Of a DNA stretch of 64,000 bases, positions 31,601 to 37,600 are shown in pieces. The DNA comes from Halisarca cf. caerulea (taxonomy: Eukaryota; Porifera; Demospongiae; Chondrillida; Halisarcidae). Within the stretch, counting starts at the first letter, position 1. Each line of letters begins with the position of its first letter. The position numbers and the translations under genes are program-made. The stretch covers positions 1,428,301 to 1,492,300 of the forward strand of contig CAUJGJ010000040.1 in assembly GCA_963170055.1 (NCBI GenBank). The letters are read 5' to 3'. The notes under the pieces are model-generated. The model was not told where the DNA came from and ran no database searches. It worked only from the letters and a program-made list of their open reading frames with translations.

Positions 31601-34600
31601 CCCATACATTAAAGCCGACCGTATTTTCACTGAAAACTCGCTTCCGGTACATTTTGGAACTCCAAAAACAGCATATTTGACTTCTACGAGCGTTTTTCGA
31701 TACATCTAAGTATACAAGAAGCTTCTGGGTGCCTTATATGAGCTATATTTTCCAAAGTTTACATAGCGTGAAAGGTCACCATTTCGGCTTTGGCTTCTTC
31801 TTCTTCTTCTTCTTCTTATTCTGATTCTTCTCGTAGAACAGGCTAGGGCTCGTTAGAAGAGGTATTCAAGATTGATTTTACCACCATTTTAACTAACCAT
31901 ACTCACAGTGGTGCCTTTTTTACCTTTAGAAGAAATTTGTTCGATGGAAAAGCTAAACAATCCTGATTTTGCCACAAAATTTGTTCTAATCCGCCATTTT
32001 AAAAATGGCCGAGTCGTATTGGGCTGGCTCGTACTCGTATCTCGCACCTCTTTTGTGCTAGTTTTCAGTGAAACTGTAAAGAACACGTAGATCAATAGGC
32101 ATATACTCACTTGTAAGTAGGTTGTCACTAGAAGTAACCCAATATTATCCAAACCAAAATTACATGTACAAGACCTATATACTGTGTGAAAATGGAAATG
32201 GGGTGCAGGCATGACTGTCAATTCCACAAAAATACTAAAATAATGTACCAAGGTTTGTCATACTGTATAGCTCTATGCATACTTTGGCTACATTGATGTT
32301 TACTTGCTATCAATATCAAGTTATTATGTTTGCGTATGACACTTTAGTGGATGACTTGGATAAACTCTGTTTGTGGCTATACATCGTTGCATGACAGCCA
32401 CTACCTATAACCTATTATTTACAAGCAAAAAGTATATGGACAAGAACCATATAAAAACCATTTAAAAATGGAAAAAAGATGTAGGGATAAAAATTGTCAA
32501 CGTCAAAAAACATTGAATCAAGGTAGGGTTGTTTGCTACACAGGGCTGGACGGGCATAGGGATAGACGTGCATAGGGCTAGACATGCAATGGACTAGACG
32601 AACATAGGGCTAGACATACATAGGGCTAGGTAGGCATAGGGATAGGCATACATGGGGCTAGACAGGCATAGAGCTAGACAGAGGTGGATTGGACTGGGTA
32701 CAGTGTGCAAATTCCTACATCCTGCGTTAATACTTTAGCTGCGGGATTTAGGAATATGCACACTGTACCCAGTCCAACCCACCTCTGTCTAGCTCTATCC
32801 CCGTCTAGCCCCATGTATGCCTATCCCTATGCCTACCTAGCCCTATGTATGTCTAGCCCTATGTTCGTCTAGTCCATTGCATGTCTAGCCCTATGCACGT
32901 CTATCCCTATGCCCGTCCAGCCCTGTGTAGCAAACAACCCTACCTTGTTCCAATGTTTTTTGACGTTGACAATTTTTATCCCTACATCGTTTTTCCATTT
33001 TTAAATGGTTTTTATATGGTTATATATATATGTATATATATATATATATATATATATATATATATATATATATATATATATATGTATGTATATATATATA
33101 TATATATATATATGTATGTATATATATATATATATATATATGTATGTATATATATATATATATATATATATATATATATATATATATATGTATGTATATA
33201 TATATATATATATGTATATATATGTATGTATATATATATATATATATATATGTATGTATATATATATATATATATATATATATATGTATGTATATATATA
33301 TATATATATATATGTATGTATATATATATATATATATATATATATATGTATGTATATATATATATATATATATATGTATGTATATATATATATATATATA
33401 TGTATGTATGTATATATGTATATATACAGTGCACCACACCTAGAGACTGGAATTTTTGTTTTACTTAAGATAAAAAGTTTAAAGTACCTTGGACTTCAAA
33501 TTATGCCTTAGATATCCAATTCTGATGATTAGTAATAGCGAGCGTCGTATTTCGCCGAGTTCTGCAGTATTAAACAGCGACTTTCTGTACTTTGCCTGTA
33601 TAAATTCGGCCATCTTTGTGACGTAATGTCATGTGACCCGTGCATGATGCAAGATCGAATTTTCGGCGGGAAAGGATAGAGAATGGCGCTTGCAGAGCAC
33701 GATTTGAGCAGCGGATCCAACTGTGTTTCTAAACACAACCTATCTTCTTTGGATTGTCGAGAGGTTAGCAACCTACCATTTTCCGACTTGAGCAACGTCA
33801 GCAAACGACCAAAGCGACAGGCCAGCCTAAATGCAGAGGCATCTTTGTCAAAATCTCTGAAAAGGTGTGCACCAAGAGGAGATCCCTCCAAGAGCACACC
33901 ATCGAGAATGCAAAATTTGAAAGAAAAACAAAATGCTACACAACAAAACTTGGGTGATGATTGTGAAAGTTTGAAGTCAATTTTGAAGAACAAAGGTGAG
34001 GCTTTTTGCTTGGGATCTGATGCTGTACAGAAATTCGTCTTTGACAATATGACTTGGACGATGTCTAAAGCACTTTCTGTCCACATGATGTCTGCATTAA
34101 GTCTTCAGGGAATGAACATCATGGAAGCTTCACAGTTGACATCCACAGTAACTGGCTTCAGTACAGAAACCGTGCGAAAATGGGGAGGATCGTTTTACCA
34201 AGCAGTTATACACCGAAGAGACTGTGATATCAGTAAGGAGTGGGTTGAGGAGCGCATGATATCCAGTCGTGGATGCCACCCCAAAACAATAAGCCTGTTT
34301 GAGGATGAAGATTTTCAACTCAAATCCAAGGAATTTGTGAGAAGCAATTCATGCACCAAAGGGAAACCAAACCTCACTGCTCAGGCATATGCTACATGGA
34401 TCAACACCAATTGGCACCATGAAATCTCCGAAGAAACAGCAAGACGATGGCTGCATAAATTAGGCTTTGAGCAGCAACGCATTGGGAAAGCTGTTTATTT
34501 TGATGGACATGAACGGCCAGATGTGGTTTCAGACAGAAATCATTATGTTCAGGAAATGCACAAGTATGACTATCCCGAGCCAGGTGAAAAGCCTGTCATC

Positions 34601-37600
34601 AGAGTATACCACGATGAGAGCACCTTTTATGCCAATGCAGGAGAGACATTTTTTTGGTCCGATGGAACAAATGCACCAATCAGAAGCAAGTCACTGGGGC
34701 AGGCCATAATGGTTTCCGACTTCATTGATGAGCAAAATGGGTATCTGAAGATGGGAGACAATACATCTAGGGTATACTTGGAGCATTCCAAAGAAGGATA
34801 CTGGAACAACGGCAAATTTCTGGAGCAAGTTGACAAGGCCATAGATGTATTCGAGGCTAAGTATCCAAACGCTTGTGGCTTGTTCATCTTTGATAATGCA
34901 CCATCACACCGGAAGATGGCAGCAGATGCACTCAATGTCCATGCAATGAACGCTGGGCCAGGTGGGAAGCAACCGGTGATGCGCGACACAGTGTGGGATG
35001 GCAAGGTCCAGAAAATGACTCTAGACAATGGTATACCAAAAGGGCTCAGGATTGTCCTACAGGAGAGAGGAATTGACAGTAAGACAATGACAGTTGAACA
35101 GATGCGTAAAGAACTGCTCAAGCATGAAGATTTCCAAGCAGCTCCCAAATCACTTTTAGAGGAGAGAATTGAGGCAAGGAATCACAAGTGTATGTTTTTA
35201 CCGCGCTTCCACTGTGAACTAAATCCTATAGAATGGGTTTGGTGTTTTGCCAAGCAATTCACAAGGCAGTATTGTGACGGTACCATCACCACTCTGCGGA
35301 AAATAGTTCCACAAGGTTTGGACAGAGTGACTAATGAACTCATCCAAAAGTTTTTTAGCAAGGTCCGAGGCTATGAGATGAGCTACAGGCTTGGACATAA
35401 TGCCACCAATGTCGATGAAGCCATTAAGCAATACACTTCACATAGAAGAGTACAACAGTGCTAGTGCATGTGAACAGTGAACAAATTATTGTAACACAGT
35501 TATATACTGTAATTATTATTATTGCTATTGTCTTTTACGGTATTTAAAAGAAAAAAACATAATAGTACCTTGACTGCAGCTGCTATCCAATGTCTCTGTA
35601 GAGCTGCAATCACTCTCCATATACACCTTGTAGTCATAGAGGATAGTGGCTTCACTGTCTACCGGGTCATTCTCATGAGTCTGCCTATGTGTAGATAGGG
35701 TTTCAGTGGATGCATCACTGTCGACTTCTTCATCTGCACACTGCTACAAAACACTCCTTTCCTCACTAACACGCTTCATGAACTGCAGAGAATACGAAAT
35801 CCCATAAAATTAGCTCACAACGAATCCTAGAAAAGTGAAACCATGTTTTGCATACCTGCAAGTTTCTGAATTTCTTGTCAGAAAGTGCGGACTTGACTAT
35901 GGGAAGTAGTTTTTCCTCTCCAAGAATGTGAACCAAAATGTCACACACGCGGAAACGCCACGATCTGCACATGGACTCTGAATACGAAGTACTAGTGATC
36001 CATGCCTTCAGCTGTAATCCTTGCCACTTCAATGGTGCAATAACACATGCTGCTTCCTTGGACAGGTGGCCCAGCTTTCTCCCCGCAGAAAATAACTCGA
36101 CGCAGTTAATGTCGAATGGGTTGTAAGGATCCAGACGCACGATTAGTGGAGCACCAACTCTGATAGAAGTAACATCATAGAACATGATGCCTCTAGCTTT
36201 GGTAATAAACGAACCGAGTAGCAAATGTTGATCAATGATCGCACACGCCATCTTTCTGAAACAGAGCACGCGGTTTCGGATGACATCACCGCACTTGGTC
36301 TGCTGACAGACACGTGACACAGTTATAAATTTAGAGGATATCATGTCATTTTTGTTATTTTGAGCAAGCGAAGCCGTCTTGTGAGCTACAATACCTCTCA
36401 AAAAGTAGGGAACCCTTTAAAAAGTTGAGTGGGCAAGATGGCAGCACAATGTCGATCCCGTAGCGATCTTTATTACGCTAAATGTTTTCTTGGTTTTTGC
36501 CTTCTTTTGTCCAAGAGGTAGTTTTGAATACTCTGTAACTAGCCTTAAAACCTGTACTGGGCAGTAAGCTAAACTACAAAATACAATGTCGTGGTTTTCT
36601 GTTATGTTTGAGATAGTTAATACGCTAAAAGTTTTTTGTGGTCCAGTTCGTTTAGGCTCCTCCCAGTCAAAGACGGGTATACTTAGGTATATATTGTCTT
36701 AATATGGAACTTTGGCGATAATTTAGCTACTCATTTGTAAACTGTATTCTCTAAGCAAGGTTTCTCTCTTTAAGATATAGTCGAAAATGTTAGCTTCCTA
36801 TAATTCCTGTCTCTAGGTGTGGTGCACTGTATATATATATATGTAATATATATATATTATATATTGGAAAAGCGTTACACGCTGGATGTCCAAATAAAAA
36901 CAATATAATATAGGGGCTGCAATTATTACTTAATATAACATCATGTAGAAAATTTATGATTATTGGTAGGTATTTTTGATTCATATATATAGGTTATAAG
37001 GATGATAATGCCTGCAATAAATTAACAGTTAACAATGGAATAATCAACCGTAGTTTCAATTGTGTCAATGGGGAAAACATACTGAATGTATCATGCCTGC
37101 CAGGATACACACTCTATGGATGCAACATGTTTACTTGCAATGGAGGTATCACTGGTCCACCTGGAATGTGGCCACCAAGCTGTGTGAATGATTCACGTAA
37201 GTGTCTCGATATATTTTATGTCTTATACTATGCAGAAACATAACATTAATAATTCAATATGAACTGTACACGTGAGCATAATATTTAGTACATAAATTAT
37301 CACAAACACATAATGCACGTACATGCGTGCGCACACACACACACACACACACACACACACACACACACACACACACACACACACACACACGCATAAACAC
37401 AATATTCTTGTCCTCGTGCCTTAATATTTCCCATTAACAATGGCAGTAGCATTAGCACTGCACCCAATCATCAGCAAAGTAGAACACAACATTCAAAGTA
37501 CACCTCTTCTTAATGAACACATTATTATTGTTTATACATACTAATACCCATCCCATAGAAAACTTTTCATAAACTTATATTATTTGTTCAGTTGTAGGTA

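Follow-up and report, generated by a model that had tools for sequence, protein, structure and literature searches.

To our knowledge, a transposase is generally regarded as all that Tc1/mariner and pogo elements need, and we know of no HIRAN domain in Harbinger or Ginger elements. Accessory proteins do occur among DNA transposons, as in Harbinger, cut-and-paste elements of a different superfamily that possess a dedicated Myb-like protein. Ginger elements, DNA transposons that also belong to another transposase superfamily, carry a Ulp1 protease (PMC2836005), and the ciliate TBE and Tec elements combine a Tc1/mariner transposase with accessory genes, one of which lies on the other strand in Tec (PMC7325037). 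In the account given in that source, these accessory genes encode a zinc finger, an unknown small open reading frame (ORF) or a recombinase, but not a HIRAN. Here we describe, in a 64,000-nucleotide stretch of the genome of the sponge Halisarca cf. caerulea (contig CAUJGJ010000040.1, positions 1,428,301 to 1,492,300; the whole stretch is termed the window), a two-gene DNA transposon of 3,403 bp (33427..36829 of the window), in which terminal inverted repeats (TIRs) enclose a transposase gene and a convergent gene for a small HIRAN protein. The preliminary description of this locus stated that Tc1/mariner elements normally carry a transposase only, to which TBE and Tec are precedents to the contrary, whereas a HIRAN cargo is indeed undescribed in the literature searched. 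The design seems to belong to the accessory-gene DNA transposons, and no description of HIRAN-carrying transposons was found in the open-access literature, judged mostly from titles and abstracts.

Comparison of the sequences gives good support to the view that the HIRAN protein has a DNA-binding fold, recurs as an accessory protein and has apparently been maintained by selection, and it also supports its being a partner of the transposase and not a passenger. The complete reading, namely an autonomous-type two-gene cut-and-paste transposon in which transposase and HIRAN protein are long-standing partners and the latter acts by capping DNA ends, is put forward tentatively, at somewhat less than an even chance; its end-capping step and its host target are the parts that we infer.

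The TIRs of the window element are 28 bp long (left, starting with CAGTGCACCACACCTAGAGAC, 33427..33454, plus strand; right, its inverted match, 36802..36829, minus strand) and identical at 27 of 28 positions, with one mismatch and the first 21 positions exact. This 21-mer occurs once per strand in the whole window, and the same end is present in the copies on contigs C369 and C290. Both ends of the element are bordered by TA (33425..33426 and 36830..36831), on the left within a TA-rich microsatellite, and the target duplication is unreadable from this copy because the TA sits inside a (TA)n tract. The transposase is encoded on the plus strand by an open ORF of 593 residues (33683..35464) with the catalytic triad D311, D404 and E517, and the HIRAN gene faces it from the minus strand. 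The features given in the preliminary description, 27-bp TIRs with TA on both sides, an intact 593-residue DDE transposase and a convergent layout, are thus borne out, with the TIRs being 28 bp with 27 matches.

The HIRAN gene consists of exon 1 of 132 codons (35856..36251), a predicted GT...AG intron of 73 bp (35783..35855, donor at 35855 and acceptor at 35783) and exon 2, which as present here (35744..35782) terminates at an in-frame TAG. The window protein matches PF08797 at 25.7 bits, a narrow pass over the cut-off of 24.7, and five relatives score 29.0-37.1 bits; a profile of 14 HIRANs from the same genome found the human HLTF HIRAN at 3e-7. Structural similarity search with a predicted model of 139 residues, of which the last seven are intron-coded (mean predicted local distance difference test score, pLDDT, 86.9), ranked the HLTF HIRAN-DNA structure 4xzf first (2.4e-8, TM-scores of 0.68 and 0.78), and the HLTF HIRAN-DNA structures were followed by 3k2y and Rad5. 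Profile and fold together uphold the HIRAN identity that had been proposed from the sequence alone.

The Pfam match is confined to exon 1, which is open. The junction of the predicted intron is read through in P0244, a JGI hypothetical protein of 206 residues (96% identity across 97% of the query) that lacks the intron, suggesting that it derives from a spliced transcript; the donor position is also kept in L013, a copy of a related family, and the HIRAN gene probably contains one intron. The frame had been described as open to 35525, but the spliced frame meets a TAG at 35746-35744. The tail of P0244 and the candidate exon 2 of L013 both continue with a similar DSEATILY...SSTETL stretch. A tail rich in Ser, Thr, Asp and Glu with STETL-like repeats was observed in three families, represented by the candidate exon 2 of L013 (from 1138 on), L024 (~720-990, downstream of the HIRAN exon) and P0244.

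Pattern search for the ends of the window family found eight sites at up to three mismatches in the 194-Mb genome: the window pair, a pair on C369, and single ends on C290, C170 and C105 (two). The C369 copy is 97% identical and its HIRAN gene is interrupted by ~4.3 kb of other DNA, the C290 copy is internally deleted, and the window copy is the only one seen of its own family with both an uninterrupted HIRAN exon 1 and an intact transposase. A second family, with 68% transposase identity, comprises five long copies (L013-L017), three of which (L013, L014 and L015) share 99.9% identity across 3,410 bp and lie at unrelated sites with plain TA duplications. Its TIR pattern yielded 32 ends at up to two mismatches that form 13 pairs. 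Three of these measure 3,410 bp, all with a PF08797 match, and nine are short (966-1,123 bp); the last, of 7,043 bp, surrounds a decayed copy (L019/L037) with parts of both genes. Seven copies of 966-967 bp between second-family TIRs, on C30, C180, C258, C290, C374, C388 and C417, are probably non-autonomous. The six copies of a third family (L023-L028) encode a more divergent HIRAN, none of which is among the PF08797 matches in the genome. A further HIRAN of the window group at C369:8530277-8530492, 49% identical to that of L025, also lies outside the Pfam matches. Across this window group, the HIRANs are 39-59% identical to that of the window (33% in L001) and the transposases 47-69%. Both genes between the same TIRs in independent insertions, the arrangement on which the preliminary description was to be judged, are therefore seen in the long copies, while the HIRAN gene is split in the C369 copy and its tail is stopped in the window.

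PF08797 has 73 matches in this genome, of which 48 were examined with their flanks, the remaining 25 being outside the inspected set; transposases in the flanking stretches were assigned by our own profile search. A transposase adjoins 43 of the 48 inspected HIRANs; it is pogo-like in 34 cases and related to the window transposase in nine. Forty of these pairs are convergent and three divergent (L008, L050 and L053), so that the layout was either rearranged or acquired more than once. A divergent pogo-type pair was also observed by Pfam places at C369:10665699-10667147. In a check by Pfam only, a HIRAN lies no more than 3 kb from 20 of the 150 listed DDE_1 places; 19 of the 73 HIRANs are involved, against 0.34 expected, and three of these 19 belong to the 25 outside the inspected set. 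Within 4 kb, by comparison, one of the 73 HIRANs is near the 119 listed piggyBac transposases (0.36 expected) and one near the 149 listed DDE_3 transposases (0.45 expected), so the listed members of both classes show no association with HIRAN. The lists hold the best candidates that were scored (150 of 437 for DDE_1, 116 of 508 for piggyBac and 150 of 277 for DDE_3), and the DDE_3 list omits, for example, the L025-type transposases, though these match DDE_3. Altogether, the counts of copies and of co-occurrences confirm that the two-gene pairing is recurrent beyond chance.

The pogo-like partners were recognized by a DDE_1 domain with Tc5- or CENP-B-type DNA-binding domains and by TA duplications. 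All three Pfam-tested loci (L003, L005 and L008) contain DDE_1 and HTH_Tnp_Tc5, with CENP-B_N in addition in L008; the other partners were assigned by our own profile. An exact 14-mer search for TIRs found ends for L009, L013, L014, L015 and L029 and none for any pogo locus in the short stretches, largely because these stretches were short, and longer stretches revealed the ends of two pogo families. The first is 2,688 bp long, has TIRs starting with CCGTACTTCC and TA outside, and occupies three sites with unrelated flanks at 99.96% identity; the second is ~2,480 bp long with TA at two sites. The end pattern of the first family has 182 matches at up to three mismatches. Pairing used the 54 ends with at most one mismatch among the 100 matches listed, and gave 24 pairs, seven of 2,686-3,297 bp and 17 of 437-469 bp. 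All seven long pairs enclose a PF08797 match; in the inspected pairs the long copies hold the HIRAN, and the short copies are too small for either gene. These elements resemble pogo/Tigger in DDE_1 with Tc5/CENP-B-type domains, TA flanks, short TIRs and many short copies similar to miniature inverted-repeat transposable elements (PMC7325037), but differ in the second gene for a HIRAN, a domain absent from the main text of that source, and in some cases in a domain similar to Ulp1.

The Ulp1-like domain lies behind the HIRAN on the same strand in five of the 34 pogo-type pairs (L002, L039, L043, L049 and L056). A single open frame contains both domains in L002 and L039, the shared frame of L049 takes in only part of the protease, and the domain is in another frame than the HIRAN in L043 and L056, via an intron or decay. 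The residues H58, D76, Q109 and C115 are invariant in all five aligned sequences (four same-strand copies and L047), and the profile matches SENP1 at 8.5e-4 and a ULP-domain protein at 1.1e-4. In Pfam, C48 was matched by L039 only, at 19.7 against a cut-off of 20.7, and L002 gave only a weak YopJ match. The catalytic residues and the profile matches point to membership in the Ulp1/C48 family. Two further loci were observed in which no transposase was found in the stretch: L055 has a HIRAN followed by a Ulp1-like domain on the same strand, whereas in L047 (4-kb stretch) the HIRAN and a Ulp1-like gene are convergent on opposite strands.

Between HIRANs of different families, the ratio of nonsynonymous to synonymous substitution rates (dN/dS, Nei-Gojobori) ranges from 0.09 to 0.45 in the comparisons seen with a computable dS, including 0.09 for L004-L005, 0.12 for L043-L055, 0.15 for L003-L065, 0.20 for L054-L068 and 0.45, the highest seen, for L008-L041. 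For the HIRANs of the window and L013, synonymous sites are saturated, with proportions of synonymous and nonsynonymous differences of 0.79 (pS) and 0.22 (pN), respectively. The HIRAN thus looks to be under purifying selection between families. In the pogo type, distances among HIRANs correlate with those among transposases (Mantel r 0.73, reached in none of 5000 permutations) in 17 non-redundant elements, taken from 30 with enough of both genes and with some transposases assembled from broken pieces; this fits long joint inheritance inside the pogo lineage. The pogo-type HIRANs are 14-24% identical to that of the window, a level compatible with two acquisitions as well as with one old exchange.

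Several observations weigh against the complete reading given above. Five of the 48 inspected HIRANs (L047, L055, L067, L068 and L070) have no transposase in the stretch. Two profiles found no HIRAN within 1.6 kb downstream of any of 12 divergent transposases of the window group (39-49% identical), and a 3-kb neighbourhood free of Pfam HIRAN matches was seen at 130 of the 150 listed DDE_1 places, with the proviso that PF08797 overlooks divergent HIRANs. Such transposases can therefore dispense with the HIRAN, and its being a general trait of the window transposase group was rejected on the 12 divergent relatives. In addition, exon 2 of the window gene ends early, after 12 codons, the dN/dS of near-identical copies, based on very few changes, spreads from 0 to 2.5, and saturation affects many of the between-family pairs. 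The end-capping function, moreover, is a prediction from comparison with HLTF, and in the 10 aligned pogo-type HIRANs the residue corresponding to HLTF Y72 is Val or Ile in eight and that corresponding to Y93 is His or Lys in nine.

A predicted model of the window transposase (pLDDT 78.8) has Mos1, Sleeping Beauty and Metnase as its best structural matches, indicating a mariner-type RNase H-like fold with a DDE triad. The NCBIfam IS630 model matches at 4.5e-11 with 42.8 bits, below its cut-off of 100, and the Pfam matches to HTH_33 and DDE_3 are weak and below their cut-offs (20 bits against 28.6 for DDE_3). Short TIRs and a TA duplication, plain at the unrelated sites of L013, L014 and L015, agree with the IS630/Tc1/mariner group. 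By contrast, 92 and 112 residues separate the members of the triad, and the latter spacing lies outside the range of 34-41 given for classical Tc1/mariner elements (PMC8533490). The label “Tc1/mariner-like” of the preliminary description accordingly holds for the predicted mariner-type fold and for the IS630 resemblance, which is under the model cut-off, but the element is not a standard Tc1.

The element resembles the Sailor (DD82E) superfamily of IS630-Tc1-mariner in several traits; Sailor is described as having a DD78-111E spacing and an HCELNPIEL motif, and as occurring in invertebrates including one sponge species (PMC8533490). Both have a long D-E spacing (78-111 in Sailor and, one residue beyond that range, 112 here), HCELNPIE around the glutamate (followed by Trp here and by Leu in Sailor), long transposases and invertebrate hosts. 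They differ in the target duplication (TA here, predominantly TATA in Sailor), the start of the TIR (CA here, usually GT/CC in Sailor) and a YHDES motif in place of YLDET. They also differ in the HIRAN gene, as the main text of PMC8533490 contains no mention of a HIRAN, an accessory gene or a second ORF. Assignment to Sailor was dropped because the duplication and the TIR start differ. A sequence search of the PDB with the transposase profile gave two weak TRIM25 matches (0.026 and 0.027), which were taken as chance, and none of the 91 and 62 pattern stretches found with the transposase alignment in viral contigs and GTDB genome contigs, respectively, was confirmed by tblastn.

Cleavage of the Tc1 type produces 3' overhangs two or three bases in length. 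HLTF HIRAN is described as binding the 3'-OH end of single-stranded DNA (PMC11237066), with a pocket that holds one dinucleotide between Y72 and Y93 (PMC4666394), and N90/N91 are the HLTF residues mutated to disable it (PMC11237066). Given this affinity and such overhangs, a stand-alone HIRAN could cap the ends of the element and of the donor site. All 14 aligned HIRANs retain D94 of HLTF and 12 of them N91, and the equivalents of Y72 and Y93 in the window protein are both Phe. Binding of 3' ends may differ or be lost in the pogo type, in which the residues at the stacking tyrosines are mostly not aromatic. The transposon HIRANs thus share with those of HLTF and Rad5 the fold and part of the end-binding pocket, but are small stand-alone proteins coded by transposons, without an SNF2 translocase and, in some of the pogo type, with a Ulp1-like domain.

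Based on these comparisons, we propose a model in which the transposase would introduce double-strand breaks, at the element as well as at the donor site, whose short single-stranded 3'-OH ends would be bound by the HIRAN protein in the manner of HLTF HIRAN. The protein may thereby keep translocases of the HLTF/Rad5 type, and end-processing activities, away from the transpososome and from the free ends, which would favour re-integration or a donor-site repair that the cell can survive. The preliminary description had suggested that the accessory protein could hold transposon or target DNA ends, direct repair or act against host factors. A precedent for shielding is that isolated HLTF HIRAN is reported to inhibit the removal of Cas9 from cut DNA by HLTF (PMC11237066). 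In the pogo relatives with a Ulp1-like domain, the HIRAN might in addition direct an activity that removes SUMO or ubiquitin to these ends. We regard as doubtful, though worth stating, the wider version in which the Sailor-like group and the pogo-like set, also beyond this genome, keep a 3'-end cap that would block HLTF/Rad5 translocases and shield transposition intermediates from host repair, with some members bringing a SUMO or ubiquitin protease.

The same fold could serve targeting instead, in which case the HIRAN would guide the transposition complex to places where free 3' ends abound, such as replication forks, and insertion would occur into replicating or replicated DNA. HLTF HIRAN has been proposed to guide HLTF at forks to the nascent-strand 3' end (PMC11237066), yet only TA is common to the few insertion sites inspected, and we consider targeting unlikely.

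A role as cofactor is unlikely to a like degree. Here the HIRAN would have no part in handling free 3' ends; it would bind transposon DNA or the transposase and so assist assembly, entry into the nucleus or the control of copy number. In Harbinger elements the Myb-like second protein helps the transposase, and the window itself has a Myb-like gene beside a DDE_Tnp_4 transposase. The two-gene layout with pairing and co-divergence would suit a cofactor, as would the loss of the stacking tyrosines in most aligned pogo-type proteins, but HIRAN is a known reader of DNA ends, and N91 and D94 are largely kept.

Still less probable is that the HIRAN only localises the protein and that the main task is interference with a host control dependent on SUMO or ubiquitin. 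The Ulp1-like domains with kept catalytic residues, two of them in one frame with the HIRAN, would suggest such anti-silencing, whereas in the stretches searched no Ulp1-like domain accompanies the window-group elements or 29 of the 34 pogo-type pairs, and the protease of L043 and L056 is in a different frame from the HIRAN. Finally, although transposons do capture host-like domains and the HIRAN gene is damaged in the tail of the window copy and in the C369 copy, a host HIRAN fragment captured once and carried without use is hardly credible, and single capture was rejected, since independent insertions, several families and two transposase lineages carry the HIRAN with signs of purifying selection between families and co-divergence.

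If end capping is true, some Tc1/mariner and pogo elements manage their own DNA ends via an HLTF-like 3'-end sensor, which would tie DNA transposons, in a testable way, to factors acting at replication forks or in end processing; shielding from repair would make this a eukaryotic transposon-encoded anti-repair system. Transposon HIRANs might also account for part of the many small HIRAN proteins in databases. In protein collections, we found 449 relatives of the transposase (120 listed), 45 relatives of the window-group HIRAN and a wider set of 1,664 HIRAN proteins at an E-value of 1e-3 or better, none of the 120 listed members of which carries a name. Among the 120 listed transposases, two pair with HIRAN matches on equal-sized contigs from the same source (P0145 with P0285, 562507; P0178 with P0270, 3271), which suggests that each pair shares a contig and hence that HIRAN-transposase pairs exist in other genomes. 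The transposases of these two pairs are 42-60% identical to ones in this genome in local alignments. One of the transposase matches listed, P0205, is named as coming from a symbiont of a poecilosclerid sponge.

Other putative mobile-element genes lie in the window. At 2.9 kb to its left, a Myb/SANT-like gene (27619-28971, plus strand) is convergent with a DDE_Tnp_4 transposase (29124-30548, minus strand), and the pair (27619-30548) probably represents a two-gene element of the Harbinger type. PiggyBac-like sequence spread over several frames occupies two regions of the minus strand, 16074-17932 and 19379-20829; PF13843 was tested in the first and matches only at 16328-17086, and the second was judged by eye. 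To the right are a reverse transcriptase ORF (38793-39878, minus strand; RVT_1 at 1.6e-16) with an upstream 496-residue frame (40171-41658) without a Pfam match, and a 632-residue frame (43832-45727, minus strand) with DUF7869 at 1.5e-14, possibly another mobile-element protein.

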